DNA of 64,000 nucleotides from positions 62,001 through 126,000 of the forward strand of contig CANOCU010000004.1 in the NCBI GenBank assembly GCA_947564645.1, read 5' to 3'. The position numbers and the translations under genes are program-made. Positions 2-16,418 of this stretch are shown piece by piece. Numbering within the stretch: position 1 is the first letter of the stretch; each line of letters opens with the position of its first letter. Source of the DNA: an uncultured Lachnospiraceae bacterium. Lineage in GTDB: Bacteria; Bacillota; Clostridia; Lachnospirales; Lachnospiraceae. A model generated the notes under the pieces. The model did not search any database, was not told where the DNA came from, and saw only the letters and a list, made by a program, of their open reading frames with translations.

Positions 2-424
2 CTGGGGTTCGCCTTTCTGGATTCCGATCTGCTGATCCAGAGCAGGGAAGGAAAACTTTTGCATGAGATCATTGAAGAACAGGGGGTGGAGAAGTTCTGG
101 GCCATCGAGGAGGAGACGAATCTGTTGATCGATGCAGGACGTACCGTGATCGCCACCGGCGGCAGTGTGATCTATGGCAGCAGGGCCATGGAGCATCTGG
201 GGCAGAACGGTGTGATCGTATATCTGCAGCTGTCCTGTGAAGAGATTGCAAGAAGGCTCGGCGATCTGAGCGAGCGCGGCGTGACGCTGCGGGAAGGGCA
301 GACTTTGGAGACGCTTTATGCGGAGCGGGTTCCGTTATATGAAAAATATGCGCATGTGACGATGGCGTGTGAGGGATTGTCCATCCGCGAGATCGTGGAG
401 GAGATTGTCCGTAAAGTGCGATAA
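2..424 (+). CDS. aroK: Shikimate kinase, C-terminal part (5' end outside window)
   Basis: Phosphorylates shikimate at the 3-hydroxyl with ATP in chorismate synthesis, in the cytoplasm. The frame is open from base 2, so the start and the P-loop lie outside the window. Visible are the FLDSDLLIQ stretch (the family's DxD-type magnesium/shikimate motif), ATGGSVIYG (equivalent to the GGG shikimate-binding loop), and a C-terminal helix with LYAERVPLYEKYA, typical of the family after the lid. The lid reads TLREGQTLETL rather than the usual RPLL form, a small divergence. About 140 residues are present of a usual 165-175. It ends 140 bases before the next gene and shows no terminator of its own. Confidence 0.88.
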   Translation: MGFAFLDSDLLIQSREGKLLHEIIEEQGVEKFWAIEEETNLLIDAGRTVIATGGSVIYGSRAMEHLGQNGVIVYLQLSCEEIARRLGDLSERGVTLREGQTLETLYAERVPLYEKYAHVTMACEGLSIREIVEEIVRKVR

Positions 425-487
425 GATATCCGTATAGTTTCTCCCGGAAGTGCAGACAATAACCTTGACAGTCCATGCAGATGCTTT

Positions 488-517
488 GCGGCGGTGAGAC
501 CGGAGCCGGACCGCCGC
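488..517 (+). other. GC-rich stem-loop upstream of the SpoVA-family gene
   Basis: An 8-bp perfect stem, GCGGCGGT (488-495) with ACCGCCGC (510-517), lies 48 bases before the spoVAE-like start. No T-run follows, so it does not look like an ordinary terminator. Its role is unknown; an mRNA structure in the leader is one possibility. Confidence 0.35.
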
Positions 518-564
518 GATGTTCTGCGGATCTACAGAATGGAAGAGAAAGGTGTGGTGTCGGT

Positions 565-924
565 ATGATGGATTATTTCAATGCATTCTGGGTAGGCGGC
601 CTGATCTGTGCACTGGTGCAGATTCTGCTGGAGAAGACGAAGATGCTGCCGGGGCGCGTGATGGTGCTGCTTGTCTGCCTCGGGGCGGTGATCAGCTTTT
701 TTGGGTGGTACGAGCCTTTTATGGAATACGCGGGCGCGGGTGCCAGTGTGCCGCTGCTCGGCTATGGCAATATCCTGATGAAAGGCGTGAAGGAGGCAGT
801 CTCGGAGAACGGCTTTATCGGGCTTTTTCAGGGCGGATTCAAGACCGGGGCGGTGGGATGCTGTGCGGCGCTGGTGTTCGGGTATCTGGCCAGCCTGGTC
901 TTTAAGCCCAAGATGAAGGGATGA
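565..924 (+). CDS. spoVAE: SpoVA family membrane protein, SpoVAE-like
   Basis: SpoVA proteins form the inner forespore membrane channel that takes up calcium-dipicolinate during sporulation and releases it on germination. The 119-residue protein has the family's small all-membrane form: hydrophobic stretches near residues 8-20, 28-48 and 95-115, a conserved-looking GYGNILMKG segment mid-protein and a short basic C-terminus. The start is the first of two adjacent ATGs, after a purine-rich GGAAGAGAAAGG; reading further upstream gives a non-hydrophobic, poorly coding extension through the 488-517 hairpin, so the longer start is rejected. spoVAC and spoVAD are not adjacent, so this is a solitary copy. 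A strong terminator follows. It could be SpoVAE or the closely related SpoVAEb type. Confidence 0.8.
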   Translation: MMDYFNAFWVGGLICALVQILLEKTKMLPGRVMVLLVCLGAVISFFGWYEPFMEYAGAGASVPLLGYGNILMKGVKEAVSENGFIGLFQGGFKTGAVGCCAALVFGYLASLVFKPKMKG

Positions 925-974
925 GGTCCTGATCAGACGGAGATGGAAAGACCGGTGACAAAATAACGGAAGCG

Positions 975-1012
975 GAAAGAATGCCTGTACGTGGGTGTTC
1001 TTTCTTTTTTTT
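975..1012 (+). terminator. Rho-independent terminator after the SpoVA-family gene
   Basis: Stem GAAAGAA (975-981) pairs with TTCTTTC (998-1004), extended inward by CC/GG pairs, and runs into eight consecutive T residues. It sits 50 bases after the stop codon. Confidence 0.8.
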
Positions 1013-1057
1013 GTCCCGGGCTGCATATAATTGATGAACTAAAAATATAAATTCCAT

Positions 1058-1085
1058 TTGATTTTTATATGGTGTTTGTTATAAT
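1058..1085 (+). promoter_or_regulatory. Sigma-A-type promoter of the IclR regulator gene
   Basis: TTGATT (1058-1063), 16-bp spacer, TATAAT (1080-1085). The start codon lies 36 bases beyond the -10 box. A 7-bp inverted repeat ATATAAA/TTTATAT (1045-1051, 1064-1070) straddles the -35 element and could be an autoregulatory site, but it is AT-rich and weak. Confidence 0.65.
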
Positions 1086-1121
1086 GAATTTGTGAAAAAA
1101 TAGAAGGAATACGGAAATAAG

Positions 1122-1916
1122 ATGGAAAAAGCACAGAAAACAGGCACTCAGACAAATCAATCGGCCGAAAAAATGTTAGTCATGATGGAATATCTTGCCG
1201 GGCAGAGGGAACCGATACGTTTACTGGATATTTCGAAAGAGCTTGGGTTGAATGTGAGTACCGCCCTGCGTTTTCTCACGGCGCTGATCAACAAAGGATA
1301 TGTGACGCAGGAGGAGGGAACTTCCCGGTATTATCTGACCTATAAGATCTGCGCACTGGCAAGCCGGGTCAGCGTACATAGGGATCTTCGTTCGATCGTG
1401 AAGCCTTATATGGAGCAGCTTTCACAGATGTTCGGGGAATCGGCATGTCTGGCCATCGAAGAGAACAGGAAAGTTGTCTATATCGAAGTGGTGGAAGGAT
1501 CGGGCCAGATGCTGCGGACGATGCAGCGGATCGGGAATGTGGCGCCGCTTCATTGTACCGGTATCGGGAAGCTGCTGCTGCTTAACTATTCGGATACGGA
1601 ACTGGACCAGCTGATCGAAGCGGAAGGTCTGGAACGATATACGGAATATACGTTAGCCAGCAAATCGCAGCTGACGAGAGAACTTTCGAAGATCCGGAGA
1701 GAGGGGATCGCATATGATAATGAGGAATGTGAACTGGGGGCGCGCTGTGTGGCCGGGCCGGTTTATGATTCCGGCGGGAAGGTCGTTGCCGGGGTGAGTG
1801 TGACCGGGCCGACCAATCATCTTACGGACGAGTTTATTGCGGAGCGTCTGGGGGAATTTAGACGGATCATGGAAGAGATTTCTTTTAAGATGGGGTATAA
1901 GGCATTCGAACAATAA
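1122..1916 (+). CDS. IclR family transcriptional regulator
   Basis: A 264-residue DNA-binding regulator with the two-domain IclR layout. The N-terminal winged helix-turn-helix is at about residues 16-78 (LDISKELGLNVSTALRFLTAL is the recognition region). The C-terminal effector-binding domain, about 90-260, carries the typical MQRIGNVAPLHCTGIGKLLL and YDNEECELGARCVAGPVYD segments. IclR proteins act as dimers that bind short palindromes and respond to small metabolites, often glyoxylate, pyruvate or sugar acids. It lies at the edge of the catabolic island and probably controls it; a candidate palindromic operator is at 3510-3540. Its own promoter and terminator make it a single-gene unit. The effector cannot be predicted. 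Confidence 0.93.
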   Translation: MEKAQKTGTQTNQSAEKMLVMMEYLAGQREPIRLLDISKELGLNVSTALRFLTALINKGYVTQEEGTSRYYLTYKICALASRVSVHRDLRSIVKPYMEQLSQMFGESACLAIEENRKVVYIEVVEGSGQMLRTMQRIGNVAPLHCTGIGKLLLLNYSDTELDQLIEAEGLERYTEYTLASKSQLTRELSKIRREGIAYDNEECELGARCVAGPVYDSGGKVVAGVSVTGPTNHLTDEFIAERLGEFRRIMEEISFKMGYKAFEQ

Positions 1917-1941
1917 GCAGCAAGCTGTGAGGCAGAGCAGG

Positions 1942-1967
1942 GGGCCGGCATTTTGCCGGCCCTTTTT
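1942..1967 (+). terminator. Rho-independent terminator after the IclR regulator gene
   Basis: Perfect 9-bp GC-rich stem GGGCCGGCA (1942-1950) / TGCCGGCCC (1954-1962), three-base loop, then TTTTT. The hairpin is shared with the convergent LarA gene, but only the plus strand has a T-tract after the stem. Confidence 0.9.
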
Positions 1968-1988
1968 CTGTTTCCGGAGAGGGAAGCC

Positions 1989-3260
1989 CTATGCCACAAA
2001 TACGGAGATGCCGTTGGGGATCACCGTGATCCTGCCGGTATCTGTTGTTCCTGTCAGTCTTTTAGCCAAAGCGAGGGCTTCTTCGAGCGTTGGCGCATAG
2101 TCCATTTTCATGTCACGGATCACCTGCTCCCACTTTTCTTCCGTTACGTAGATCACCCGTTTCTTTTCCAGGATTCTTGCCAGAATCTGATACTGCCACT
2201 GGTCGGGCACCGTCGCATCCATGGGAGTGGCGCGGATATCCTCAAGCAGTTTGGGAATACTGCTACAGTTTTTCAGAGCCTGGTAGAAGTCTTCACCGCC
2301 TGTACCGTCCGCGCATTCCGCGCAGATAATGATAACGCCGCCTTCCTGCGCGGCCGCATCCGCCGTACATAATCCTTTAACGGTCTGATAGATATTCTGA
2401 TCCAAAGGTGCTCCGCCGTTGGAAGTTATAACGATGGGCGTCTTCTCTTTGACCGTGACCTGGCAGTAGGGTTTCAGGAAAGCACAGCCGGCCTCATGGG
2501 CCTGCACCGGATCTCCTGCAAAGGCCGCAGCCACCTTCTTATCCTCATCGATCACCACATTGACGATATAGGCAAGCCCTGCCATGGAGGCCGCAGCCAG
2601 CATGTCCCGGTGAATGGGGTTATTCTCCAGATTCCCGGTTCGGGCATGGGGGCTGTCGATAAAGGCCGCGCAGTGATTGCCAAGCACGGTCACCCGGCTG
2701 CAGATTCCCGGCAGCACGCTCTTACGACCACCAGAGAAGCCGGCAAAAAAGTGTGGTTCAATAAAGCCTTCCGCCACCAGAAGGTCTGCTTCCATAGCCG
2801 CCCGGTTGATCACCAGACGCGCACCGGAGGGCAGTGTGCCTAAATCTGCCAGCTGCAATTTGTCGTCGCAGTCGTGCACCAGGATACGCTCCTTCTCTAC
2901 GATCTCAGGGCCAAGTTTCCCGATCAATTCCTCCTGTCTGGTGCCCCGGTGACAGCCCGTGGCTACCAGAAGCGTGATCTTGATATCCGGATTCCCGAGC
3001 CGCAGTTGTTTCAGCATAAGGGGAATGATCTTTTTGCTGGGAACCGGCCTTGTATGATCGCTGATGATCACGGCAGCCGTGGCCTTGCCTCTTGCCAGTT
3101 CCCACAGGGGCGGCGTTCCTAAGGGATGCTCCATAGCCTGTCTTACCAGTTCTTCCTGCTCTTTGTCTCCTTTCAATTCTCCGATTCGGGATTCCAGTAT
3201 CTGCACGACGCCATCCTCGCTCATTTTCAGATTGGTATTTCCATAAGGAATCGAAATCAT
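1989..3260 (-). CDS. larA: LarA family nickel-dependent 2-hydroxyacid racemase
   Basis: Lactate racemase family enzyme; the characterised members interconvert D- and L-2-hydroxyacids using a nickel-pincer nucleotide cofactor in the cytoplasm. The 423-residue length fits the family (about 420-430). Residues H104 (ATGCHRGT), H170 (GFIEPHFF) and K180 (GFSGGRKSV) match in context and spacing the H108, H174 and K184 of Lactobacillus LarA that act in catalysis and cofactor attachment. The start is the ATG after AAAGGAGAGAAC; an upstream in-frame ATG would add 30 basic residues and lacks such a site. No larB, larC or larE (cofactor synthesis) is in the window. It is divergent from the importer operon, so it may act on a 2-hydroxyacid of that pathway rather than on lactate. 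Confidence 0.88.
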   Translation of the reverse strand: MISIPYGNTNLKMSEDGVVQILESRIGELKGDKEQEELVRQAMEHPLGTPPLWELARGKATAAVIISDHTRPVPSKKIIPLMLKQLRLGNPDIKITLLVATGCHRGTRQEELIGKLGPEIVEKERILVHDCDDKLQLADLGTLPSGARLVINRAAMEADLLVAEGFIEPHFFAGFSGGRKSVLPGICSRVTVLGNHCAAFIDSPHARTGNLENNPIHRDMLAAASMAGLAYIVNVVIDEDKKVAAAFAGDPVQAHEAGCAFLKPYCQVTVKEKTPIVITSNGGAPLDQNIYQTVKGLCTADAAAQEGGVIIICAECADGTGGEDFYQALKNCSSIPKLLEDIRATPMDATVPDQWQYQILARILEKKRVIYVTEEKWEQVIRDMKMDYAPTLEEALALAKRLTGTTDTGRITVIPNGISVFVA

Positions 3261-3349
3261 ATGTTCTCTCCTTTCCGTGGCCGCTTTAAGTTTGATGCCT
3301 CGTTGCCTGCGGCGGGGCATCTGACCGGACCAAAATGTGATTGTCTGCA

Positions 3350-3378
3350 ATTGTATCAGAAAAAGACTGCCTTATCAA
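3350..3378 (-). promoter_or_regulatory. Sigma-A-type promoter of the LarA-family gene
   Basis: On the minus strand TTGATA (3378-3373), 17-bp spacer, TACAAT (3355-3350). It lies 90 bases before the LarA start codon and points away from the importer operon. Confidence 0.65.
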
Positions 3379-3467
3379 TGAGAAACGTAAAGAGCGCATG
3401 ATATGGCAGTTTGCTGAAGTAAAAAGTTTTTTCCGGTAAGATTTCCGGAAGAATCTCCAAAAAGAGG

Positions 3468-3497
3468 TTGACAAATCTGAGCGGGGAGGGGTATAAT
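3468..3497 (+). promoter_or_regulatory. Sigma-A promoter of the catabolic/importer operon
   Basis: Perfect consensus boxes TTGACA (3468-3473) and TATAAT (3492-3497) with an 18-bp spacer. The predicted transcript starts near 3504, giving a leader of about 135 bases. A promoter this strong implies that expression is held down by a repressor, probably at the palindrome immediately downstream. Confidence 0.8.
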
Positions 3498-3509
3498 TAG
3501 CTAAACGAT

Positions 3510-3540
3510 TCAAATAATGAAATTGAATTTCAATATTTGA
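3510..3540. promoter_or_regulatory. 31-bp palindrome, candidate operator
   Basis: Two 15-base arms around a central G match at 14 of 15 positions. The inner 15 bp, TGAAATTGAATTTCA (3518-3532), is a perfect odd palindrome. It begins about six bases after the predicted transcription start, the right place for a repressor. The TG-AAAT-N-ATTT-CA architecture resembles sites described for IclR-family regulators, and an IclR gene lies 2 kb away; assignment to that protein is inference. Confidence 0.65.
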
Positions 3541-3551
3541 AATAAATGAAA

Positions 3552-3559
3552 AGGAGGGT
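3552..3559 (+). other. Orphan Shine-Dalgarno sequence in the importer leader
   Basis: AAGGAGGG with no usable start codon at normal spacing; the real start is 80 bases further on with its own AGGAGG. In some Bacillus leaders an untranslated ribosome-binding sequence stabilises the transcript; such a role here is only a possibility. Confidence 0.4.
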
Positions 3560-3638
3560 AATCAGTAAATTTAGAGTAATAAAAAGTGAATAAGATAACT
3601 GTTAATGAAAAATGATAAATTAAGTAGGAGGTATTCAA

Positions 3639-5093
3639 ATGAAAAAGAGACAAAAAATGTTGGCAGTGCTTTTGGCTTCAACGATGCTGGCGGCGACTCT
3701 TGTGGGTTGTGGGGGACAGGAGGCAGACAGCCAGGGAAGCAGCGGCGCTCAGGAAAGCGGCAGCGAACAGGAAGCGGCGGCATCTAACGAGAGTGAAGAG
3801 ACAGGAGCACAGGAGCAGGCTTCTTCCGGCGAGGTACAGCAGCTGAATTTCTATGCGTGGACGAGTCCGGAGAATATGGTTCCGTTGGTAGAAGCTTTTA
3901 ACGAAGATTATGCAGGCACATATGAGATGACCTACCAGAAGCTGGCGGACGCAGCGACGATGACGATCAACACGGCGCTTGGTTCCGGAGAACCGATCGA
4001 TGTCATGACGCAGGCCAGCGCGATGGATCTGCGTGTCCGTGCGGATGACGGCGTATACCTGGGTCTGAAGCAGTTCTTTGACAAAGAGGGTTGGACCTAT
4101 GAAGAAATCATGGGAAGCGCTATGGAAGAGACCATGAACATTGAAGGCGATTATTATGCGATCCCGTACTGCAACAACATCAATATGGTATGGTTCAACA
4201 AGAAGATGTTTGATGAAGCGGGAATGGAATATCCGCAGGCAGGATGGACCTGGGATGATTTCAGGGAAACAGCCATCGCCATGACTCATGGTGAAGGCGG
4301 CGACAAGGTCTATGGAGCAATGTTAGACTATGCCGACGGCGACGGCGACAACTACTGGGATCTGATCGCACGCCAGAAGCTGGGCGCTTTTACCTATTAT
4401 AATGACGACTTTACGGCAACTCAGTTCGACGCTCCGGAATTTAAGGAAAGCCTGGAGTATTTCTACAACCTGGCGATGGTAGATAAATGTATCGTTCCTC
4501 TTGAAGAGTATACGGCATTACAGTATCACAAGGATCCGACCGGTATGGCAGGTCTGTACAACGGCAAGTATGCGATGTGGATCGCGCCGGTATACGGTTG
4601 TCTGTATCTGAATGAAAGTTACGGTGAGATTCCGGAAGGCACCGATATTGGCGTAGTTGATATGCCTACCACTGATGGTGGTGCGACGGTTACGACTTGT
4701 TATACATCTACGGCAAGTATTCCGGCGACCTGTAAGGATCCGGATGCGGCATGGGAAGCGCTTAAATATGCCTGCATCGAGCGTGCCGATCTGTTTGCAG
4801 GACCGAAGGCGATGCATCCCGGATATGCATTCCAGTCGGATGAGGACAGAGACGCGTTCAACCACATTATCTTCGACGGCAAGCCGGGTCTGGATGTAGA
4901 CATGGCGATGGAAGTTATGGCTCTGGACCGCACATTGGTCAGCAAGGACAATACGGTCAGACAGGGACAGGTGGGAATCAATGAAGCGATCAAGAACAAC
5001 ATGACGCTGGTATTCTCCGGTGAGATGAGCGTGGATGAAGCGTTGGCAAATCTGAAGGAACAAGGAGACGCCGCTATTGCAGCCGATCAATAA
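3639..5093 (+). CDS. ABC transporter sugar-binding lipoprotein (family 1)
   Basis: The extracellular receptor of a carbohydrate importer, tethered to the outer face of the membrane. The 484-residue precursor has a basic N-terminus, a hydrophobic core and the lipobox LVGC with Cys24 as the lipidated residue. A linker rich in Gly, Ser, Gln and Glu (about 25-66) leads into the binding domain, where LNFYAWTSPENMVPLVEAFN and the GEPIDVMTQASAMDLRVRADDG region are typical of family 1 solute-binding proteins; PVYGCLYLNES and TCYTSTASIPATCKDPDAA are in the C-terminal lobe. The start follows TAGGAGGTATTCAA. It is first in the operon and is followed by a stable stem-loop, consistent with excess synthesis of the receptor. 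The ligand is not predictable. Confidence 0.93.
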   Translation: MKKRQKMLAVLLASTMLAATLVGCGGQEADSQGSSGAQESGSEQEAAASNESEETGAQEQASSGEVQQLNFYAWTSPENMVPLVEAFNEDYAGTYEMTYQKLADAATMTINTALGSGEPIDVMTQASAMDLRVRADDGVYLGLKQFFDKEGWTYEEIMGSAMEETMNIEGDYYAIPYCNNINMVWFNKKMFDEAGMEYPQAGWTWDDFRETAIAMTHGEGGDKVYGAMLDYADGDGDNYWDLIARQKLGAFTYYNDDFTATQFDAPEFKESLEYFYNLAMVDKCIVPLEEYTALQYHKDPTGMAGLYNGKYAMWIAPVYGCLYLNESYGEIPEGTDIGVVDMPTTDGGATVTTCYTSTASIPATCKDPDAAWEALKYACIERADLFAGPKAMHPGYAFQSDEDRDAFNHIIFDGKPGLDVDMAMEVMALDRTLVSKDNTVRQGQVGINEAIKNNMTLVFSGEMSVDEALANLKEQGDAAIAADQ

Positions 5094-5120
5094 GATACAT
5101 GGTGTAAGTCAGATGGCCGG

Positions 5121-5154
5121 AATATCCCCTGTGTCTTTTGACACGGGGGATATT
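5121..5154 (+). other. Stable intercistronic stem-loop after the binding-protein gene
   Basis: A 15-bp stem (5121-5135 with 5140-5154) with one G-T wobble and a TTTT loop. The bases after it are TATTCTGAGC, not a T-run, so it is unlikely to terminate fully. Such structures after binding-protein genes protect the upstream mRNA and reduce expression of the permease genes. Confidence 0.7.
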
Positions 5155-5202
5155 TATTCTGAGCGTCAGATTACATCAGCCGTAAGTATAGTTTAGAAAG
5201 GA

Positions 5203-6123
5203 GTGAGTACGATAACTAATGCAATAACCAAAAACAAAATGACAAGAAGAGAAGCTAAGGAAAATTTAATGGGTTGGGCATTTATCGGTCTGAATCTGGC
5301 CGGCTACCTGCTGTTTAAGCTTCTGCCGCTTGTTCTGGCAGGGGTGCTTAGCTTTACAAAGTGGAACATAGCGGCGAGCCTTGATAAGATGCAGTTCGTA
5401 GGTTTTGATAATTTTGCCCGGATATTCCGTGATTCTGTTTTCTGGGAATCTTTCTGGAATACGATTCTCTATGCAGTCGTCATGGTGCCGATCGCAATAG
5501 GGCTTTCGCTGATCCTGGCAGTGATCTTAGACACTCATGTGTTTGGCAAGGGCTTACTGCGGCTGGCGTTTTATCTGCCGAATATTTCCTCGATGGTAGC
5601 GGTATCCATTGTGTGGATGATCTTGTTTATCCCTTCATATGGACCGATCAACTCGATCCTGATGTCGCTTGGGATCGATAATCCGCCCAAATGGCTGAAT
5701 GCCACATCGACTTCCCTGATCTCGATCATCATTATCGGTGTCTGGCAGAGGCTTGGTTATAATATCATCATCATACTGGCAGGTCTTCAGGGTGTGTCGA
5801 AGTCGTTGTATGAAGCGGCAGAGATCGACGGGGCGAATGCAGTCCAGAAGTTCTTCTATATTACGATCCCGTCGTTGTCGAATACGATGTTCTTCCTGAC
5901 CATGATCTCCTTTATCAGTTCGTTCCAGATGTTTACGCCGGTACAGGTCATGACCAAGGGCGGTCCGGGAACATCCTCATCGGTGCTGGTTTATTACATT
6001 TATAAGGCGGCATTTCAGAATAATGATATTGGCGGCGCCAGCGCTATGGCCTGGGTACTGTTTCTGTTGGTATTTGTTTTTTCGGCGGCACGGATGATCG
6101 TCTCGCGGAAAAAAGAATCCTGA
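5203..6123 (+). CDS. ABC sugar transporter permease (MalF/UgpA type)
   Basis: First membrane subunit of the importer. About six membrane segments are visible, the first at roughly residues 25-50. The cytoplasmic loop EAAEIDGANAVQKFFYITIP is the EAA motif that docks with the ATPase. The start is uncertain: GTG at 5203 directly abuts the strong site AAAGGAG, leaving no spacer. The next in-frame ATG at 5239 has no ribosome-binding site, and the ATG at 5219 is out of frame and stops at once. The GTG is kept by default. It is 109 bases after the binding-protein gene and 17 before the second permease gene. No ATP-binding subunit gene is nearby, so a shared ATPase encoded elsewhere is expected. Confidence 0.9.
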   Translation: MSTITNAITKNKMTRREAKENLMGWAFIGLNLAGYLLFKLLPLVLAGVLSFTKWNIAASLDKMQFVGFDNFARIFRDSVFWESFWNTILYAVVMVPIAIGLSLILAVILDTHVFGKGLLRLAFYLPNISSMVAVSIVWMILFIPSYGPINSILMSLGIDNPPKWLNATSTSLISIIIIGVWQRLGYNIIIILAGLQGVSKSLYEAAEIDGANAVQKFFYITIPSLSNTMFFLTMISFISSFQMFTPVQVMTKGGPGTSSSVLVYYIYKAAFQNNDIGGASAMAWVLFLLVFVFSAARMIVSRKKES

Positions 6124-6140
6124 CGGCAAGGAGGTGTGGT

Positions 6141-6977
6141 ATGGGTTATCAAAAGAAAAGATTGATTACAAAAATAGTCCTCACGGTGATCATGGCAGTG
6201 ATCTCGATCATCATGCTGCTGCCGTTTGTCTGGATGTTGTCGGCTTCTTTTAAGCCGGATAACCAGATCTTTAATTTCCCCATCGAGTGGATCCCCAAGG
6301 ATTTCACGTGGGCCAATTATGACAGGGTATGGAATTCGGACGTTCCGTTCTCACGGTTTTTTACAAATTCCCTGAAAGTCACCCTGTTGTCTGTTACCGG
6401 TGAAGTGCTGACCAGCGCCCTGGCGGCATACGCTTTTGCCAAGATCAAGTTCAAGGGCAGAGAGGTCATCTTCCTCATCTATCTGTCAACGCTGGCTTTT
6501 CCGGCTCAGATGATGCTGATCCCCAGATATGTCCTCTTTAAGGCGTTTGGGATCTACAACACGCATCTGGCGCTGATCTTACCGGGTATGTTCACGGCGT
6601 TTGGTACGTTTATGCTGCGGCAGTTCTTCATGTCGATTCCGGATGAGCTGTGTGAGTCGGCGAAGATCGACGGCGCCGGGCATTTCACGATATTTTCAAA
6701 GATTGTCGTGCCGCTTGCGATACCGGCGTTCAGTGCACTGATTATCTTCCAGTTCGTAGGATCCTGGAATGATTATGAGGCGCCGCTTGTCTATATCAGA
6801 AGTAAGGAACTGGCAACGATCCCTCTGGGCCTGAATTTCTTCCGGGATGAAAATTCCGCCAGCTATGGTGCGATCATGGCGGCATCCGTCTGTTCGCTGC
6901 TGCCGATCTTTGCAGTATTTCTGGCCTTCCAGAAACAGTTCGTGGCAGGGATCGCAACGTCGGGGCTGAAAGAATAG
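6141..6977 (+). CDS. ABC sugar transporter permease (MalG/UgpE type)
   Basis: Second membrane subunit, pairing with the preceding permease to form the translocation pore. At 278 residues with six predicted membrane segments it matches the MalG/UgpE family. The EAA-type loop ESAKIDGAGHFTIFSKIVVP sits in the second half. The start follows AAGGAGGTGTGGT at ideal spacing. The segment GSWNDYEAPLVYIRS, ahead of the last membrane helices, is characteristic of this subunit type. It ends 53 bases before the large hydrolase-like gene, so import and intracellular processing are probably co-transcribed. Confidence 0.93.
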   Translation: MGYQKKRLITKIVLTVIMAVISIIMLLPFVWMLSASFKPDNQIFNFPIEWIPKDFTWANYDRVWNSDVPFSRFFTNSLKVTLLSVTGEVLTSALAAYAFAKIKFKGREVIFLIYLSTLAFPAQMMLIPRYVLFKAFGIYNTHLALILPGMFTAFGTFMLRQFFMSIPDELCESAKIDGAGHFTIFSKIVVPLAIPAFSALIIFQFVGSWNDYEAPLVYIRSKELATIPLGLNFFRDENSASYGAIMAASVCSLLPIFAVFLAFQKQFVAGIATSGLKE

Positions 6978-7030
6978 TGTGAGAAAAACTTCTAAAGCGT
7001 GAGAAGAAATAGAGTGAAAGGAAGAAAAAA

Positions 7031-9592: not shown

Positions 9593-9655
9593 GAACGATT
9601 CTATAGGGACGCAGGAATATAGAGAATGGAATGCAGAAAGGAATGAATAGCAGGC

Positions 9656-11023
9656 ATGAGAACAATAAAAGAGACATTGGAAACTCCCATACGTTATGAA
9701 TGTGACGTGCTGGTATGCGGCGGCGGTACGGCAGGCTTCGTAGCTGCCCTGGCGGCGGCAAGGACCGGTGCAAAGACGATGTTAGTGGAGCGGTACGGGT
9801 ATATCGGCGGTTCGCTGATCAACGGCGCCGGTCCGCTGCACAGCTTTTTTAACTTATATAAGGCATTTCCGAATGCAGAGAAGATCCAGGTGATACGCGG
9901 GATCCCGCAGGAGATCGTGTCAAGGATGCAGGAGGCAGGCGCATCGCCGGGACATCTGGAGCAGGATAAGGGCGGCAGCTATGATTCCATGATCACCCTG
10001 ATGGATTGGGAAGAGTTTAAGGACATGGCATTTACGATGCTGGAGGAGTGCAACGTCAAGGTGCTGTTACACACGATGGCTGTGGGAGCTGTGATGGACG
10101 GCGGCTGTATCAAGGGTGTGGTCATTGAAGGCAAATCCGGACGTGAAGTGATCGAGGCCAAAACGGTGATCGATACGACCGGAGACGGCGACATTGCCGC
10201 ATTTTCCGGGGCGGAGTTTATCAAGAAGCATGATACGACGACTGCCGGATTCCCCTTCGGCATGACGGGCGTCGATATGGAACGGCTGGTGGCGTTCCTG
10301 AAAGAGAAGGACATGGTCACACAGCTAATCGAGGGTGACAAGGGAAGCGATACAGACCATATCATACGGCTGGGCTTCGATCTCCATAAGATCCCGCTGT
10401 TTGCCGAATTTATGGATAAGAGCGGTATGTGGGGCCCGCTTGGATTCTCGCTGCACGAGAACAATTACAGCTATATCAACTCGGCGACATTAAGAAGCGT
10501 GGATGCCACGGATACGGAGGCCTTGTCGGAAGCGGAGATCATCTTAAGACATCAGGCCATGACACTGTCCAGGATGCTCAGAGAACATATTCCGGGCTTC
10601 GAGAAGGCATATGTAAGCTGGACGCCGGCAAGTATCGGCGTGCGTTACACGAGAGTGGTCCGCTGTGAACATGATATGTCACTGGAGGAGATCGTGAACT
10701 GTGCCCGGTTCGACGACGAGGTAATGCTGTACGGCTTCCATGACTGTGCACCGCGCATTATGATCAGGGACGGCGGCTATTATGGCCTTCCATATCGCGC
10801 ATTACTGCCTGTCAAGGTGGACGGTCTGCTGGTTGCGGGACGCCTGATCACCAGCGAGTGGGATGCCCATATGTCGACCAGGAACACCGCATCCTGCATG
10901 GCACAGGGGCAGGCAGTGGGAACGGCGGCTGCGCTTTGTGCAAGGATGGGCGTAGTTCCTCGGAAACTGGATACGGATCTGCTGCGCGGGGAATTGAAGA
11001 AGCAGGGTGTATTTTTAGGTTAA
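9656..11023 (+). CDS. FAD-dependent oxidoreductase (FAD_oxidored family), copy 1
   Basis: A 455-residue flavoprotein. The N-terminal Rossmann motif VCGGGTAGFVAALAAARTG (from residue 20) followed by an acidic strand end (LVE) and GYIGG is the FAD-binding signature. DTTGDGDIAAFSGA mid-protein is the second FAD contact motif, and a C-terminal HMSTRNTASCMAQGQAVGTA block closes the site. No signal peptide or membrane helix is seen. Proteins of this PF12831-like group oxidise sugars, sugar acids or related compounds; the substrate is unknown here. The start ATG is preceded by GAAAGGAA about 13 bases upstream. It is a clear paralogue of the next gene, 21 bases downstream, suggesting a tandem duplication and perhaps a heteromeric or two-step enzyme. 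Confidence 0.85.
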   Translation: MRTIKETLETPIRYECDVLVCGGGTAGFVAALAAARTGAKTMLVERYGYIGGSLINGAGPLHSFFNLYKAFPNAEKIQVIRGIPQEIVSRMQEAGASPGHLEQDKGGSYDSMITLMDWEEFKDMAFTMLEECNVKVLLHTMAVGAVMDGGCIKGVVIEGKSGREVIEAKTVIDTTGDGDIAAFSGAEFIKKHDTTTAGFPFGMTGVDMERLVAFLKEKDMVTQLIEGDKGSDTDHIIRLGFDLHKIPLFAEFMDKSGMWGPLGFSLHENNYSYINSATLRSVDATDTEALSEAEIILRHQAMTLSRMLREHIPGFEKAYVSWTPASIGVRYTRVVRCEHDMSLEEIVNCARFDDEVMLYGFHDCAPRIMIRDGGYYGLPYRALLPVKVDGLLVAGRLITSEWDAHMSTRNTASCMAQGQAVGTAAALCARMGVVPRKLDTDLLRGELKKQGVFLG

Positions 11024-11044
11024 CAGAAAGGTACAGGTATCGTT

Positions 11045-12439
11045 ATGGATTATGTAATTCGCCCGGAAGTACGGGTTAATACGAAAGAATTTGATGTGAT
11101 CGTCTGTGGCGCCGGAACGGGCGGCGTGATTGCGGCTCTGGCGGCGGCAAGAACAGGCGCCAGGACGGCGGTAGTGGAATATAAGGGATATGTAGGCGGT
11201 ATCGCGGCGGAAGGCGGCTGCGGCCTGCACAGCTTCTATAATCTCTGGAAACCGTTTCCGGGAGTCGAGAAGAAGAAGATCGTCAGAGGTATTCCGGAAG
11301 AATTTATCGATCGTCTGACCAAAGTCGGCGGCGCTTCCGGCCACAATGAGACGATGATGAATTACGGATACGATTCCGACGCTCTCTGCGTGGATGTGGA
11401 GCTTTATAAATATGTGGCGCTGCAGATGCTGCGGGAGGCCGGCGTACAGGTATACTTAAACACGATGGTGGTGGATGCCGTGACGGAAGGGAACCGTATG
11501 AAAGGGATCATCACGGAATCCCATGAAGGATGCAGCGCACTGATGGGCCGAATGTTCATCGACGCTACAGGATACGGCGATCTGTCGGCACGCGCCGGCG
11601 CGTCTTATACGGAGCCGAACGACTATGCGGTAGCCAACAGCATGGGAATCGGCGGGATCGATATTGACCGGTATTATGAGTTCCTGAAGGAAAGCGGAGC
11701 CCTCAAGGAGTACGCTTACGGACCGAGAGACGGCCGGGACGGCAAGCTGATCCGTGTGGACGGAAGCTGGGAGAAACTGCCCGGGGATTTCGGGGCACGT
11801 GCCCGCGCCCTTGGAATGCATACGGTTACGACCACGCTGCATGACAATTACTTTATGTTCATCAAGCTTAACTATATGATGCCGAAGAGTCCGACCGATG
11901 CGGAGGCGCTTTCGGATGCGGAGTTTGAGCTGCGCAGAAGACAGCAGGAGGCATTAAAGCTGCTCAAGGAGGTGATTCCGGGGAGTGAGGATGCGTTTAT
12001 TGCCAGGACCGCTCCGGCGATCACGATCCGCCGTGCGCGCTGCATCGAATGTGAGTATGATCTGAGCAATGACGAGATCATCAATGCGACGCATTTTGCG
12101 GATGATATCTTTACTTATGGTTTCCATGATGAAGCGCCTAAGTTCCAGGTGAAGAACGGCGGCACCTATGGGATTCCGTATCGGGCGATCGTGCCGAAGA
12201 AGCTGGAGAATCTGTTCTCCATCGGTATGATGATCACGTCCGATCATGATGCCCATATGTCAACCAGAAATACGGTGTCCTGTATGGGACAGGGGCAGGC
12301 AGCAGGAACGGCGGCAGCGCTTTGTGCACTGCAGGGTATTACCGATGTGAGGGGACTGCCCTATGCGACATTGCGGGCGGCGTTGGAGAAGGGCAATGTC
12401 TGGTTTGAGACAGAGCCTGCTATACTGAGCGCCAGATAA
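11045..12439 (+). CDS. FAD-dependent oxidoreductase (FAD_oxidored family), copy 2
   Basis: A 464-residue paralogue of the preceding flavoprotein, alignable along its whole length. Shared blocks include the dinucleotide motif VCGAGTGGVIAALAAARTG, the LHSF-NL-K-FP segment near residues 60-75, RGIPEE, DATGYGDLSARAGA and the C-terminal DAHMSTRNTVSCMGQGQA. The two differ in the central substrate region (about 180-300), where this copy has an extra PRDGRDGKLIRVDGSW segment, so they may act on different intermediates. The ribosome-binding site is weak (AAAGGT, far from the ATG). Position between copy 1 and the ThDP enzyme gene supports a role in the same pathway. Electron acceptor and substrate cannot be read from sequence. 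Confidence 0.85.
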   Translation: MDYVIRPEVRVNTKEFDVIVCGAGTGGVIAALAAARTGARTAVVEYKGYVGGIAAEGGCGLHSFYNLWKPFPGVEKKKIVRGIPEEFIDRLTKVGGASGHNETMMNYGYDSDALCVDVELYKYVALQMLREAGVQVYLNTMVVDAVTEGNRMKGIITESHEGCSALMGRMFIDATGYGDLSARAGASYTEPNDYAVANSMGIGGIDIDRYYEFLKESGALKEYAYGPRDGRDGKLIRVDGSWEKLPGDFGARARALGMHTVTTTLHDNYFMFIKLNYMMPKSPTDAEALSDAEFELRRRQQEALKLLKEVIPGSEDAFIARTAPAITIRRARCIECEYDLSNDEIINATHFADDIFTYGFHDEAPKFQVKNGGTYGIPYRAIVPKKLENLFSIGMMITSDHDAHMSTRNTVSCMGQGQAAGTAAALCALQGITDVRGLPYATLRAALEKGNVWFETEPAILSAR

Positions 12440-12514
12440 AGCTGTTACGCAGTAAAACTTCCGTTACATATTCACATAGAGGTAAAAACGAAAAGAGATA
12501 GGAGAGGAAAATAT

Positions 12515-14200
12515 ATGAAGATCACAGCAGCAGAAGCTGTAGTACAGATTATGGTCAAAGAAGGGATCACCGACGCGTTCGGGATTCCGGGGGCCGGGAT
12601 CAATCCGGTGTATAAATATCTGGAGAACGCACCCATCAGCCATTATGGCATGAGGCATGAGGAGGCTTGTACGCATGCGGCGGATGCTTACTATCGGGCA
12701 AGCCATAAGATCGCGTTGGCGATCTGTACCGCAGGTCCCGGGGCAACTAATTTCGTGACAGGACTGTATACGGCCAATATTGATTCAATCCCGATGTTGG
12801 CGATGGTGGGGCAGGCCAATACCTGGCAGCTTTCCATGGATCCCTTCCAGTGTGTGGACATGGTAAGTATCGCCGAGACGGTGACGAAGAAGGTGTTTCG
12901 CCCGATGAAGGCGGAGGATGTGCCGGAGATGATGCGGGAGGCGTTCTATCTGATGCGTGCGGGGAAACCTGGTCCGGTGTTGATCGACTTCCCATTGGAT
13001 GTACAGATGGCAGAGTTGGAGTTTGACATTGAGCAGTATACGGGGAAGGAAGCAGAACAGGTGTTGCCGGATTCGGCAAAGATCGATCAGGCCATCGATC
13101 TTCTGGCGTCCGCCAAGAGCCCGGTCATCATCATGGGCGGCGGTGTGATCTTGTCGGAATCCGAGCAGGAGCTGACGGCATTTGCAGAGCGTTATCAGAT
13201 TCCTGTGATAACGACTTATATGGCCAAGGGCGGCCTTCCGTCGGATCATCCTTTGAATGCCGGTCATGCCGGGATTCAGGTAGGCCAGCCGATCGGCAAT
13301 AAGTACATGTTGGAATCGGATGTTGTACTGGCCATCGGATGCCGCTTCTCCGACAGACATACCGGTGATCTGAAGGTTTACCGTGGAGAGCGCAAATTCA
13401 TACATATTGATATTGAAGAAAAGCAGATCGGCAAGGTGTTCGAACCTGATCTGGGGATCGTTTCCGATGCGGCGCTTGCAATCCGTGCCTTGATGCAGGC
13501 GGCAGAGAAGAAGGGACTGACACCGTCCGGCAATCCTCGTGTGGAGGAGCTTCCGGCGCTGCGTAAGCAGATGGCGCGCAAGACCGATTATGATACGACA
13601 CCGATCATGCCCCATCGTGTGTTCCATGAGATCAACAAGGCTTTTGACGCGGATACGATGTTCACTACCGGCTGCGGTATCGTGCAGATCTGGTCCGGAC
13701 AGCTGCAGCAGATCGATAAGCCGCGCAGGTATCTTCCTTCCGGCGGCGCGGGAACGCTCGGCTTTGATATTCCGGCGGCTTTCGGTGCGAAGGTGGCTCA
13801 TCCGGAGCGCTGCAGCGTGACGGTGCTGGGAGATTTCGGGTTTACCTTTATGGTGGAAGAGATCGCGGTCTGCGCGGTGTTTGATAAGCCCATCATCGTG
13901 GTGATCGTCAACAACGCGAACCTGGGACTGATCCGGCAGAATCAGAAGGGTGCGTACGGATATGAGTATGCGGTGTCGATGCCTTATAATCAGGACGGCA
14001 CGATGGATTACGTGAAGGTGGCGGAAGGATTCGGATGCAGAGGCGAGCGTGTCTTCACACCACAGGAACTGGAGGCGGCACTTGTGCGCGCGAAGGAATC
14101 CGGCAAGACTTATATCATCGATGCGATCTGTGTGAAAGAACAGCTCTGCGATATGGGCGGTTCGATCGCTGCGGTGAAATCCTGGGCGCCGGAGGCGTAA
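12515..14200 (+). CDS. ThDP-dependent enzyme, glyoxylate carboligase / acetolactate synthase-like
   Basis: A 561-residue enzyme with the three-domain layout of the acetohydroxyacid synthase superfamily: PYR domain (1-170), central domain (about 190-325) and PP domain (about 365-540). The ThDP/magnesium motif runs from GDF at 439-441 to NN at 466-467. Overall it reads most like glyoxylate carboligase (IPGAGINPVY, RPGPVL-type segment, NNANLGLIRQNQKGAYGYEY, MDYVKVAEGFGC). However, Glu49 in GMRHEEA stands where E. coli glyoxylate carboligase has its unusual Val51; glutamate is the normal residue in other ThDP enzymes. It may therefore perform another carboligation or decarboxylation. The next genes (isomerase, hydroxyacid dehydrogenase) resemble the tartronate-semialdehyde route. 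Start after GATAGGAGAGGAAAATAT. Confidence 0.8.
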   Translation: MKITAAEAVVQIMVKEGITDAFGIPGAGINPVYKYLENAPISHYGMRHEEACTHAADAYYRASHKIALAICTAGPGATNFVTGLYTANIDSIPMLAMVGQANTWQLSMDPFQCVDMVSIAETVTKKVFRPMKAEDVPEMMREAFYLMRAGKPGPVLIDFPLDVQMAELEFDIEQYTGKEAEQVLPDSAKIDQAIDLLASAKSPVIIMGGGVILSESEQELTAFAERYQIPVITTYMAKGGLPSDHPLNAGHAGIQVGQPIGNKYMLESDVVLAIGCRFSDRHTGDLKVYRGERKFIHIDIEEKQIGKVFEPDLGIVSDAALAIRALMQAAEKKGLTPSGNPRVEELPALRKQMARKTDYDTTPIMPHRVFHEINKAFDADTMFTTGCGIVQIWSGQLQQIDKPRRYLPSGGAGTLGFDIPAAFGAKVAHPERCSVTVLGDFGFTFMVEEIAVCAVFDKPIIVVIVNNANLGLIRQNQKGAYGYEYAVSMPYNQDGTMDYVKVAEGFGCRGERVFTPQELEAALVRAKESGKTYIIDAICVKEQLCDMGGSIAAVKSWAPEA

Positions 14201-14241
14201 CAGCCTGAAAAGAAATAACAGAAGGGAGAACAGAGACAGCG

Positions 14242-15144
14242 ATGAAAGATTCAATCCATAAATATTTTCAGATCGGTACAATCCAGTGGATGAGCCATCC
14301 GCCGGTGGATTATGAGGTACTATCGTCTATTAAGACGATCGGCTGCGACGATTATTTCGATGCCCTTGAGGTAACGCAGTTTAAGGATGACGAGACGCGA
14401 AAGAAAGCGAAGGAGATGTTGGAGCAGGCTCATATGAGAGTGTGTTACGGCGCTCAGCCAAGACTCCTTGGCCCGGGACTCAATCCCAACGATATTGAGG
14501 AAGAAGGCAGGAAAAAGGCCGAACAGACACTGCTCGAGGCGGTGGATGAGGCGGAATATCTCGGAGCGAAGGGGATCGCTTTCCTGGCCGGCAAGTGGGA
14601 GGAAGCGACGAAGGAGGAAGCTTATAAGCAGCTTTTAAAGACGACGCAGAACGTATGTGATTACGCTGCCACGAAGGGAATGAGCGTGGAACTTGAGGTG
14701 TTCGACTATGATATGGATAAGGCTTCCCTGATCGGACCGGCGCCCTATGCGGCTGCTTTTGCGGCCGATATGAGAAGCAGATGCAGTAATTTCGGGCTAA
14801 TCGTAGACCTGTCCCATTTCCCGACTACTTATGAGACGTCGCGTTTCGTGGTGCGCACGCTGCGCCCCTATATTACTCATTTCCATATCGGCAATGCGGT
14901 GGTGAAGAAGGGATGCGAAGCTTACGGCGACCAGCATCCGAGATTCGGATTTCCGGAGAGCGCCAATGACACGGAGCAGCTGCTTGACTTCTTCCGCGTG
15001 CTGAAGGAGGAAGGTTTCTTCGATGCCGCAGACCCGTATGTGCTGTCTTTCGAGGTAAAGCCCTGGACGGGAGAGGACGGGGATCTGATCCTTGCCGGAA
15101 CGAAGCGGGTGATCAACAGGGCCTGGGCACTGTTGGAAGACTGA
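14242..15144 (+). CDS. Sugar phosphate isomerase/epimerase-type TIM barrel (hydroxypyruvate isomerase-like)
   Basis: A 300-residue protein of the xylose isomerase-like / AP endonuclease 2 superfamily. Candidate metal ligands fall at strand ends: E152 (VELEVFD), D189 and H192 (LIVDLSHFP), H213/H215 (ITHFHIGN) and E271 (SFEVKPW). This pattern supports a divalent-metal aldose-ketose isomerase or epimerase. It is longer than E. coli hydroxypyruvate isomerase (258 residues) and not closely similar, so that name rests on its place after a glyoxylate carboligase-like gene and before a hydroxyacid dehydrogenase gene. Start ATG after AGAAGGGAGAACAGAGACAGCG. Other candidates are a 3-keto-sugar epimerase or lyase, which also belong to this superfamily. 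Confidence 0.72.
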   Translation: MKDSIHKYFQIGTIQWMSHPPVDYEVLSSIKTIGCDDYFDALEVTQFKDDETRKKAKEMLEQAHMRVCYGAQPRLLGPGLNPNDIEEEGRKKAEQTLLEAVDEAEYLGAKGIAFLAGKWEEATKEEAYKQLLKTTQNVCDYAATKGMSVELEVFDYDMDKASLIGPAPYAAAFAADMRSRCSNFGLIVDLSHFPTTYETSRFVVRTLRPYITHFHIGNAVVKKGCEAYGDQHPRFGFPESANDTEQLLDFFRVLKEEGFFDAADPYVLSFEVKPWTGEDGDLILAGTKRVINRAWALLED

Positions 15145-15194
15145 GGTAAACAAGGGCGTTATTTGCAGCATCATGTATGCAAGGAGGAACAGAA

Positions 15195-16148
15195 ATGAAA
15201 ATAGTAATCTTAGACGGATATACGGAGAACCCGGGAGATTTAAGCTGGAGCGGCTTCGAGGCGCTTGGAGACCTGACGGTCTATGACAGGACGGCCAGGG
15301 AAGATGTGATAGCGCGGATCGGAGACGCGGAGGCGGTCATCGTCAACAAGACCCCTCTGGACCGGGAAGTGTTTGAGAAGTGCGACAAGATCAGGTATGT
15401 GGGCGTGCTTGCCACCGGCTATAATGTGGTGGACGTGAAGGCGGCAAGAGAACATGACATTCCGGTCTGCAATATACCGACCTACGGTACCACGGCGGTA
15501 GCGCAGATGGTATTTGCCCTGCTTCTTGAGGTCTGCCATCATGTGGCGGAGCATTCGGACGCAGTGAAGCGGGGAGAGTGGTCGAATAACAGTGACTGGT
15601 GCTTCTGGAAGTATCCGCTGATGGAGCTGTCCGGAAAGACGATGGGAATCGTCGGCTTTGGCCGTATCGGCCAGGCTGTGGGCAGACTGGCTGCAGCGTT
15701 TGGTATGGAAGTGTTGGCTTATGATGCTTTTCAGAGTGAGGAAGGAAGTAAAATCGCCCGTTATGTATCGCTTGACGAGTTGCTTGCACAGTCGGATGTG
15801 ATCTCCCTGCACTGCCCGCTGTTCCCGGAGACGGAAGGGATGATCAATGCGGAGAGCATTGCGAAGATGAAGGACGGCGTGATCCTGATCAACACCAGCC
15901 GCGGGCCGCTGATCAATGAGGCGGATCTGGCGAAAGCGCTGCGGGAGAAAAAGGTATATGCGGCAGCCTGCGACGTGGTATCCACGGAGCCGATCCTGCC
16001 CGATAATCCGCTGCTCGGCTGCTATAACAGTATCCTTACGCCCCATATCGCCTGGGCGCCGAAGGAAAGCCGGCAGAGGCTTATGGATATTGCGGTCTCC
16101 AACATGAAGGCGTTCATGGACGGAAAACCGGTGAATGTTGTCAATTAG
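15195..16148 (+). CDS. D-2-hydroxyacid dehydrogenase (glycerate dehydrogenase-like)
   Basis: A 317-residue NAD(P)H-dependent enzyme that reduces 2-oxoacids such as hydroxypyruvate to D-2-hydroxyacids. The Rossmann motif is GIVGFGRIG (151-159), and Asp177 (LAYDAF) at the end of the second strand favours NADH. The catalytic triad is R236 (NTSRGPLI), E265 (VVSTEPI) and H284 (LTPHIAW). The start is the ATG after AAGGAGGAACAGAA; an upstream ATG at 15177 contains the ribosome-binding site itself and is rejected. It is the last gene of the island and is followed by a terminator. With the preceding two genes it could complete conversion of a two-carbon unit to glycerate; this is inference. Confidence 0.87.
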   Translation: MKIVILDGYTENPGDLSWSGFEALGDLTVYDRTAREDVIARIGDAEAVIVNKTPLDREVFEKCDKIRYVGVLATGYNVVDVKAAREHDIPVCNIPTYGTTAVAQMVFALLLEVCHHVAEHSDAVKRGEWSNNSDWCFWKYPLMELSGKTMGIVGFGRIGQAVGRLAAAFGMEVLAYDAFQSEEGSKIARYVSLDELLAQSDVISLHCPLFPETEGMINAESIAKMKDGVILINTSRGPLINEADLAKALREKKVYAAACDVVSTEPILPDNPLLGCYNSILTPHIAWAPKESRQRLMDIAVSNMKAFMDGKPVNVVN

Positions 16149-16223
16149 ATATGGCAAGGTTGTGGAAAATTTCTTTGATTTGAGTCTATAGCTTTATCAG
16201 CTTTATGCTGCGTGGTATCTGTG

Positions 16224-16266
16224 CCGGATCTTGTTAGCAGGACTGTTGGGGGCAGTCCTGATCCGG
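16224..16266 (+). repeat. Long interrupted hairpin after the island
   Basis: An inner 8-bp perfect stem CAGGACTG/CAGTCCTG (16238-16245, 16253-16260) is flanked by CCGGAT/ATCCGG, with a seven-base bulge on the left side. There is no T-run after it; the T-run terminator lies 40 bases further on. It may protect the 3' end of the operon mRNA. Confidence 0.5.
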
Positions 16267-16301
16267 TGCAGGGTCTGCGCAGAGTAAAAAGCGTGTCGGT
16301 T

Positions 16302-16336
16302 ATGCGATCTTCCAATGGGGGATGGCATTCTTTTTT
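16302..16336 (+). terminator. Rho-independent terminator of the catabolic operon
   Basis: Stem ATGCGATCTTCC (16302-16313) with GGGGGATGGCAT (16317-16328), a three-base loop, two wobble pairs and one mismatch, followed by TCTTTTTT. It is the first T-tailed hairpin after the importer genes. Confidence 0.65.
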
Positions 16337-16418
16337 GATTTCTGTTAAAATACAATAGAATATGACAAAAAGCTGTTATGGAAAGCAGCATGTGGGGAAA
16401 CGGGAGTGAGAACCGAAG

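Follow-up and report, generated by a model that had tools for sequence, protein, structure and literature searches.

Which compound is broken down by a gene cluster that joins a sugar importer, a large protein resembling glycoside hydrolases, two flavoenzymes and a set of enzymes for two- and three-carbon acids? The question is raised by a locus of an uncultured Lachnospiraceae bacterium at positions 1122-16148 of the window, i.e., the whole stretch of 64,000 nucleotides analysed here (62001-126000 of contig C4 of a 4.1 Mb draft genome). A first-pass annotation of this DNA had proposed that an imported glycoside is degraded to glyoxylate-like units which become glycerate. Our analysis supports the lower half of that route, from glyoxylate to glycerate, while for the proposed upper half no glyoxylate-forming enzyme was identified. 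Our tentative reading is that the cluster is a catabolic unit for an acidic alpha-glycoside, yielding glyoxylate and from it glycerate. It appears to be a new combination of known enzyme kinds, with a recognisable lower half and an upper half that looks new, and the gene set was not described in the literature searched, which comprised titles and the openings of abstracts. Two testable surprises are predicted within it, a glyoxylate carboligase (Gcl) with a glutamate at position 51 and a glycerate racemase.

The genes are genuine and conserved as a unit, and those named by the first-pass annotation are present according to domain and model matches. Its count of eight genes on one strand has to be corrected, since the plus-strand run from the binding protein to the dehydrogenase (3639-16148) comprises nine genes with internal gaps of 17-109 bp, or ten counting the IclR gene, and the LarA gene that was described as flanking lies inside the set on the opposite strand. 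The features are given below, where GHL is the glycoside-hydrolase-like protein, ThDP stands for thiamine diphosphate, FAD for flavin adenine dinucleotide, ABC for ATP-binding cassette and NPN for nickel-pincer nucleotide; locus counts refer to 12 related loci (L007-L017 and L021) with GHL proteins 55-89% identical, some of which are cut by contig ends.

1122-1916, plus strand: IclR-family regulator (best curated models all below cut-off)
1939-1965: terminator-like stem 3' of the IclR gene (consensus only)
1989-3350, minus strand: LarA-family nickel-pincer racemase of the lactate racemase group, predicted glycerate racemase (NPN/catalytic and pocket residues)
3468-3497, plus strand: promoter-like site TTGACA-18-TATAAT (12/12 consensus match only)
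3518-3532, plus strand: palindrome TGAAATTGAATTTCA, candidate IclR-type operator directly 3' of the -10 box
3639-5093, plus strand: solute-binding protein of a sugar ABC importer, N-terminus lipoprotein-like by eye (PF01547; 12/12 loci)
5203-6123, plus strand: ABC importer permease 1 (PF00528; 12/12 loci)
6141-6977, plus strand: ABC importer permease 2 (PF00528; 12/12 loci)
7031-9592, plus strand: GHL, 853 amino acids, GH138-like putative alpha-uronidase (profile match to BPa0997)
9656-11023, plus strand: FAD1, PF12831 flavoenzyme (280.5 bits versus a Pfam gathering cut-off of 27; 11/12 loci)
11045-12439, plus strand: FAD2, PF12831 flavoenzyme (265.8 bits versus a cut-off of 27; 9/12 loci, the L009 copy being cut by a contig end)
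12515-14200, plus strand: ThDP enzyme, predicted Glu51-type glyoxylate carboligase (Gcl is the best model; Enterococcus gilvus relative 72%)
14242-15144, plus strand: PF01261 TIM barrel, predicted hydroxypyruvate/tartronate-semialdehyde isomerase (PF01261; 70% to E. gilvus)
15177-16148, plus strand: D-2-hydroxyacid dehydrogenase, predicted hydroxypyruvate reductase (domain and model matches; 62% to E. gilvus)

The last three genes, which we call the C2/C3 half, have their most telling relatives on plasmid pCR1A of E. gilvus CR1. There the order is IclR, ThDP enzyme, TIM barrel, dehydrogenase and glycerate kinase, and the row lies close to AllB, an allantoin permease and a gene of the alanine-glyoxylate aminotransferase family. 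Allantoin breakdown ends in glyoxylate. The three enzymes match those of the window at 72, 70 and 62% identity in the same order, and the upstream IclR protein is 37% identical; unlike the window cluster, that of E. gilvus has allantoin as its source and the glycerate kinase within the row, no relative of GHL or of FAD1/FAD2 was found in the 29.7 kb examined, and importer relatives occur only in a separate GH32 locus. The E. gilvus row (L205:2966-19139, corresponding to 813327-829500 of the 919 kb plasmid) has its ThDP gene annotated merely as a "thiamine pyrophosphate-dependent enzyme." In a second genome (G473) a ThDP gene (58%) adjoins an IclR gene (46%), two AllB genes and two purine/allantoin-type permeases; the allantoinases score over the TIGR03178 cut-off (420 versus 358 bits) and below the cut-offs of two narrower models. 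Also in favour of glyoxylate units ending as glycerate are a tartronate semialdehyde reductase over its curated cut-off in G606, three genes from a FAD2 relative with two permease genes between, and a glycerate kinase with a CdaR-type regulator directly before the importer in Anaerocolumna. In loci L008 and L012 an iron-dependent alcohol dehydrogenase stands between the ThDP and LarA genes, filling the reducing step. Because same-order relatives occur in the E. gilvus allantoin cluster with a glycerate kinase, the ThDP enzyme, TIM barrel and dehydrogenase most likely convert glyoxylate to glycerate.

The Gcl route from glyoxylate to glycerate is established, and the gcl-hyi-glxR-glxK genes of Escherichia coli perform the same overall conversion of glyoxylate to 2-phosphoglycerate (PMC12694930). 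The E. coli enzymes differ from those of the window, Gcl being 41-42% identical with a valine at position 51, Hyi only 18% identical to the TIM barrel and GlxR being a dehydrogenase of a different family (PF03446 for the relative in G606). The TIM barrel protein alone matched no chain in the PDB; sugar isomerases are matched by the profile of a mixed alignment (A7) that also contains two remote TIM barrels and the Hyi protein of E. coli. No Hyi model was reported for it among the curated models, and a 47% identical relative scored 21.9 versus a cut-off of 353 bits. An assignment as inositol or 5-keto-gluconate epimerase, its sole curated match (27 versus a cut-off of 300 bits), was dropped after the E. 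gilvus match.

The ThDP enzyme has Gcl as its best curated model, yet it scores below the cut-offs (619.5 versus 791 and 515.7 versus 711 bits); the best acetohydroxyacid synthase (AHAS) model reaches 479 bits against 619 for the Gcl model. Its nearest solved structures are Gcl, it retains the LGLIRQ loop of Gcl, and it is 41-46% identical to four Val51 Gcl proteins and a Nonomuraea protein versus 23-38% to four AHAS/PoxB-type proteins, so that identities and model scores place it nearer to Gcl than to AHAS or pyruvate oxidase. A valine at position 51 is said to be characteristic of the whole Gcl family in one study (PMC3534367), whereas the window enzyme has glutamate there. Across 24 sequences, glutamate occupies this position in 16 Gcl-like proteins (the window's included) and in the four AHAS/PoxB-type proteins, and valine in the four Gcl references. 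An unrooted tree joins three groups at one node (Glu51 Firmicutes; Val51 Gcl with Nonomuraea; AHAS/PoxB) and cannot by itself decide between Gcl and AHAS affinity. The Nonomuraea protein (L206:6001-7680) is Gcl-like, carries Glu51 and groups beside the Val51 carboligases, which suggests that Val51 arose inside the Gcl family. Given their allantoin neighbourhoods, glyoxylate being the end product of allantoin breakdown, and given that the Gcl route is established, we regard the Glu51 enzymes as most likely genuine glyoxylate carboligases. Among six ThDP-bearing genomes examined besides the window's own, two have the gene in GHL clusters, one in the allantoin setting and one beside a TIM barrel, a dehydrogenase and a partial FAD gene (36%). 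Why the glutamate kept by nearly all ThDP decarboxylases was lost from most glyoxylate carboligases is a question for which the cluster provides a natural test.

The LarA protein groups with lactate racemases, has 2yjg as its best PDB match and keeps all five NPN-binding and catalytic residues of the known LarA lactate racemases (R75, H108, H174, K184, and H200 in LarA1 numbering). Its four specificity positions read F-F-W-Q, within the F-F-W-E/Q pocket pattern. At the T359 position LarAH43 likewise has glutamine, and it slightly prefers glycerate to lactate (114 versus 83 x 10^3 per M per s; PMC11770544). Glutamine is found there in nine of the ten proteins compared, the window's included, the tenth (G682) being unreadable at that position. 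We predict that LarA is a glycerate racemase; lactate is a possible substrate, and position 359 appears to favour glycerate weakly. The LarA gene lies near the GHL or ThDP gene in most genomes examined, G682 excepted, and the window's own genome encodes LarC, which inserts nickel, as well as a glycerate kinase of the GlxK type; no MOFRL-type glycerate kinase was found in it at E 0.001. From this cluster, a likely function in vivo can be proposed for a LarA racemase of the glycerate type.

The nature of the imported compound is suggested by GHL, which gave no Pfam match up to E 10, the GH67 Pfam domains included, and shows no signal peptide by eye. A profile of 37 GHL relatives searched against the PDB matched the GH138 enzyme BPa0997 (6hze, 6hzf, 6hzg) with E 3.4e-28 in two stretches, profile positions 7-325 and 455-740 (49.5 and 48.4 bits), which cover the N-terminal and the C-terminal helical parts. 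An hhalign comparison with GH67 (probability 84, E 7.6e-6) spans the N-terminal domain and the start of the barrel and ends with E289 on the Glu of KADSE. Both E289 and E353 are invariant in all 37 GHL sequences and are the best candidates for the catalytic pair. E353 lies outside the GH138 match, and the spacing of the two residues is 64 versus 67 in GH138, where the second catalytic residue would be Glu361, judging from a mutant in a PDB title. GHL differs from BPa0997 in that the kinship is distant, the middle stretch is unmatched, and GHL has no visible signal peptide and stands in an importer operon; it differs from GH67 alpha-glucuronidases in lacking a GH67 Pfam match, and the genome has a separate true GH67. 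The activity reported for GH138 is the removal of galacturonic acid from rhamnogalacturonan II, in its chain A. As GHL is distant kin of GH138 and weakly of GH67, an acidic alpha-glycoside is the likely imported compound, and GHL may represent an intracellular branch of the GH138 kin. Some remote GHL relatives have enolase-superfamily genes beside them (10 of 79 loci, eight within 6 kb), and enzymes of that superfamily commonly act on acid sugars. A plasmid of the haloarchaeon Haladaptatus sp. YSMS36 (L003:14955-38193) carries three GHL paralogues (39-41%) together with four genes annotated as enolase superfamily.

FAD1 and FAD2 are paralogues (41% identical by alignment) whose similarity to known structures is confined to the N-terminal part, which binds FAD, and PF12831 is scarcely mentioned by number in the literature searched. 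Outside the cluster they are again found near glyoxylate-related genes: besides the G606 case, in which FAD2 stands with GlxR, the order in G464 is aminotransferase-FAD2-FAD1-IclR, where the best models of the aminotransferase, both below cut-off, are pyridoxamine-pyruvate (243 versus 600 bits) and BhcA aspartate-glyoxylate (228 versus 650 bits). Several of the genomes examined have PF12831 genes beside sugar genes. In G593 FAD2 stands with a zinc alcohol dehydrogenase, a dehydrogenase, a TIM barrel and a transketolase half, and an apiosidase-like gene lies about 15 kb away; the same contig (C34; L134, L162) also carries HMG-CoA-reductase-like and HMGL-like genes and an importer, all within about 17 kb, and may be a locus for a branched sugar, apiose. 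In G342 (L160:6284-18643) a GH67 alpha-glucuronidase lies near a TIM barrel, a zinc alcohol dehydrogenase, FAD1-like genes (29-32%, BLAST) and a short-chain dehydrogenase, and in G528 (L163:5699-14647) a FAD1-like pair (30-32%, BLAST) occurs with LacI, a sugar importer, a TIM barrel and a short-chain dehydrogenase. By tying the PF12831 pair to a recognisable end product, the cluster makes the flavoenzyme chemistry testable with few purified enzymes.

Whether these genes travel together was addressed by searching 84,980 species with the GHL profile, which gave 116 confirmed stretches and 79 loci kept. The 12 related loci described above belong to Lachnospiraceae, Oscillospiraceae, Anaerocolumna, other Clostridia, a Firmicutes bacterium, Mahella, a Spirochaetia bacterium and Treponema; L002 (G215), apparently from the same genome as L009 judging by contig number and identities, was kept outside them, and alignment A3 was made without L043. 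The three importer genes and GHL occur together in one order in every one of the 12, FAD1 in 11, FAD2 in nine, the ThDP and IclR genes in seven each and LarA in five. The other 67 loci yielded neither a ThDP nor a TIM barrel relative; they contained one LarA relative (36%, L048) and one FAD2 relative (54%), the latter in a Phycisphaerae locus (L034, 3480-12448) at some 5 kb from a distant GHL (30%) and outside the Clostridia/Spirochaete cluster clade. Searches of 11 of the 12 whole genomes, that of L012 being left aside, found the ThDP enzyme (at least 56%) in eight, FAD2 proper (at least 58%) in nine and a LarA match in seven. In G681, the genome of L009, contig C112 carries in succession the end of FAD2, the ThDP gene and LarA. 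In G686, which its coordinates identify with G593, FAD2 is accompanied by a TIM barrel (49%) and a dehydrogenase (72%) on a different contig from GHL. The co-inheritance that would favour the first-pass annotation is supported by the fixed importer-GHL order and by agreeing patterns of divergence (GHL-FAD1 r 0.87, n = 12; GHL-FAD2 r 0.93, n = 9; FAD1-ThDP r 0.91, n = 8; each 0/999 permutations; GHL-ThDP r 0.80, 3/999), a test which cannot tell co-inheritance from shared species history; the IclR divergence agrees less (r 0.53-0.65, 18 to 53 of 999 permutations). GHL is rare: in the family, two out of 299 genomes have it, one of them being the window's own, and it was not found in the one other genome of the same genus searched.

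In the pathway that we infer from these observations, the ABC importer would take up the acidic alpha-glycoside and the intracellular GHL would cut off an alpha-linked sugar of the uronic acid type, whose product FAD1 and FAD2 would oxidise on the way to glyoxylate. The simplest chemistry would be oxidation at C3 followed by an aldol-type cleavage between C4 and C5, by which C5-C6 of a hexuronate would leave as glyoxylate; such chemistry would account for three parts travelling together, namely a hydrolase for acid sugars, the flavoenzymes and the glyoxylate module. The ThDP enzyme would join two glyoxylates to tartronate semialdehyde and CO2, the TIM barrel would isomerise this to hydroxypyruvate, and the dehydrogenase would reduce hydroxypyruvate to glycerate. 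LarA would interconvert L- and D-glycerate, letting the whole pool reach a glycerate kinase encoded elsewhere. A more specific version, which we regard as doubtful, is a hitherto undescribed anaerobic route for sugars of the uronic acid type, with twin PF12831 enzymes leading to C4-C5 cleavage. Its glyoxylate would be salvaged by a Glu51 carboligase together with a nickel-pincer racemase of glycerate, and the route would have been transferred as one unit among Clostridia and Spirochaetes.

A number of observations weigh against this reading. Neither an aldolase nor an enzyme for the remaining four carbons was found among the cluster genes. The HMMER match places Glu294, which we take to be one catalytic glutamate of BPa0997, opposite residue 288, with E289 one residue beyond, and skips the stretch expected to hold the second catalytic glutamate; moreover, GHL scores only 40.4 versus a cut-off of 1300 bits with the alpha-galacturonidase model NF049878, which we guess stands for GH138. 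The TIM barrel and the dehydrogenase, which the first-pass annotation had placed in the core, occur in only two of the 12 loci, and these two are close relatives. Importer-GHL-FAD1 is present in the complete genome of Anaerocolumna (G682), whose LarA match lies far from the cluster with two in-frame stops and in which neither a ThDP enzyme (E up to 1e-100) nor FAD2 proper was found. At the limits used, the ThDP enzyme was not found in G685 and G687 either, FAD2 proper was not found in G689, and LarA was not found in G679, G685, G687, and G689. Glyoxylate carboligation would not be obligatory, since G682, G685 and G687 lack the ThDP enzyme. Two of the six other ThDP genomes have no helpful neighbour among the genes examined, and the glutamine of the LarA pocket is weak evidence for glycerate because both glutamate and glutamine are usual in the lactate racemase group.

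Alternatively, two independent routes may have been joined, one for the import and use of an acidic glycoside and the other a glyoxylate-to-glycerate module serving glyoxylate from other sources (ureides, glycine). The module does sit in allantoin clusters elsewhere, and importer-GHL-FAD1 does occur in the three genomes where the ThDP enzyme was not found; we nevertheless consider this arrangement unlikely, as the ThDP gene shares its locus with GHL in seven of the 12 cases and LarA in five, ThDP divergence tracks that of GHL and FAD1, and FAD genes lie near glyoxylate-related genes in G464 and G606 where GHL is absent. The source of glyoxylate might alternatively be the aglycone, such as glycolate, glycerate or a similar small acid, which the flavoenzymes would oxidise while the sugar enters glycolysis. 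Such a scheme explains why the cluster has genes for small acids only, and agrees with the glycerate kinase and CdaR-type regulator before the Anaerocolumna importer, with a LarA pocket of the glycerate-accepting kind and with GHL kin in haloarchaea, from which glycosylglycerate solutes are known. It is nonetheless rather improbable: the GH138/GH67 kinship points to what we take to be recognition of a sugar carboxylate, a simple alpha-hydroxyacid needs no two flavoenzymes, and we know of no abundant glycoside of glycolate.

The remaining alternatives reassign single enzymes of the set. On the model of the 3-keto-glycoside pathways, the glycoside itself could be the substrate of FAD1 and FAD2 for oxidation, with the TIM barrel acting as an eliminase, as might be suggested by rows of PF12831-type genes with PF01261 TIM barrels in G528, together with the short-chain dehydrogenase, and in G603. 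We think this very unlikely, given that the TIM barrel is 70% identical to that of an allantoin cluster where no GHL or FAD gene was found and that it is missing from 10 of the 12 loci. Lowest of all we rate a ThDP enzyme that cleaves a cyclic or open-chain diketone or an acyloin rather than joining glyoxylates: the presence of Glu51, in contrast to known glyoxylate carboligases, and the 619 versus 791 bits against the Gcl cut-off would fit it, and set against these are the two allantoin neighbourhoods, Gcl as both best model and nearest structures, and the preserved LGLIRQ loop.

As to regulation of the proposed acidic-glycoside unit, the IclR protein would act as repressor through the palindrome at 3518-3532 in front of the operon and would probably be released by glyoxylate or a near relative of it. 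The best curated models of the protein, none of them over cut-off, are BhcR (179 bits), the PcaR/PcaU type (156), KdgR (153), IclR (140), and AllR (125); relatives (44-91%) occur in seven of the 12 loci, and IclR genes adjoin the ThDP gene in E. gilvus and G473, as noted above. The succession of the TTGACA-18-TATAAT site and the palindrome may speak for one transcription unit, promoter-like sites as such not being enriched (11 found in the scan versus 15.7 expected). With up to two mismatches the palindrome is the sole match in 64 kb, yet at least one match appeared in 28 of 100 shuffles; its exact half-sites were seen in none of 200 shuffles of the 200 bp before the binding-protein gene. The pattern TGAAA-N5/6-TTTCA is of the kind that IclR-family repressors use as operator. 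In a scan of 12 upstream regions, which omitted L014 as its region is cut by a contig end, this form was exact in the window, L007, L008, L016, and L017 (equalled in 0-2 of 200 shuffles), carried one mismatch in L009 (8 of 200), and was not found in L010, L011, L012, L013, L015, and L021. An operator common to all relatives was rejected, as only six of the 12 upstream regions have it, and for each of the remaining six between 112 and 192 of 200 shuffles did equally well.

The description of the locus as an island finds no support in base composition, although the set is rare: the G+C content of the region does not depart from the range seen around it, the window has no tRNA gene and positions 1-20000 gave no Rfam match, mobile elements having been searched for in these ways only. 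The locus is bounded by sporulation genes, with SpoVAC/SpoVAEB at 475-924 and a germination protease and SpoIIP at 18962-21232. Further downstream, at 42273-61145, the window carries flagellar and chemotaxis genes (FlgE/F/G-like, FHIPEP/FlhA, and CheA-like).

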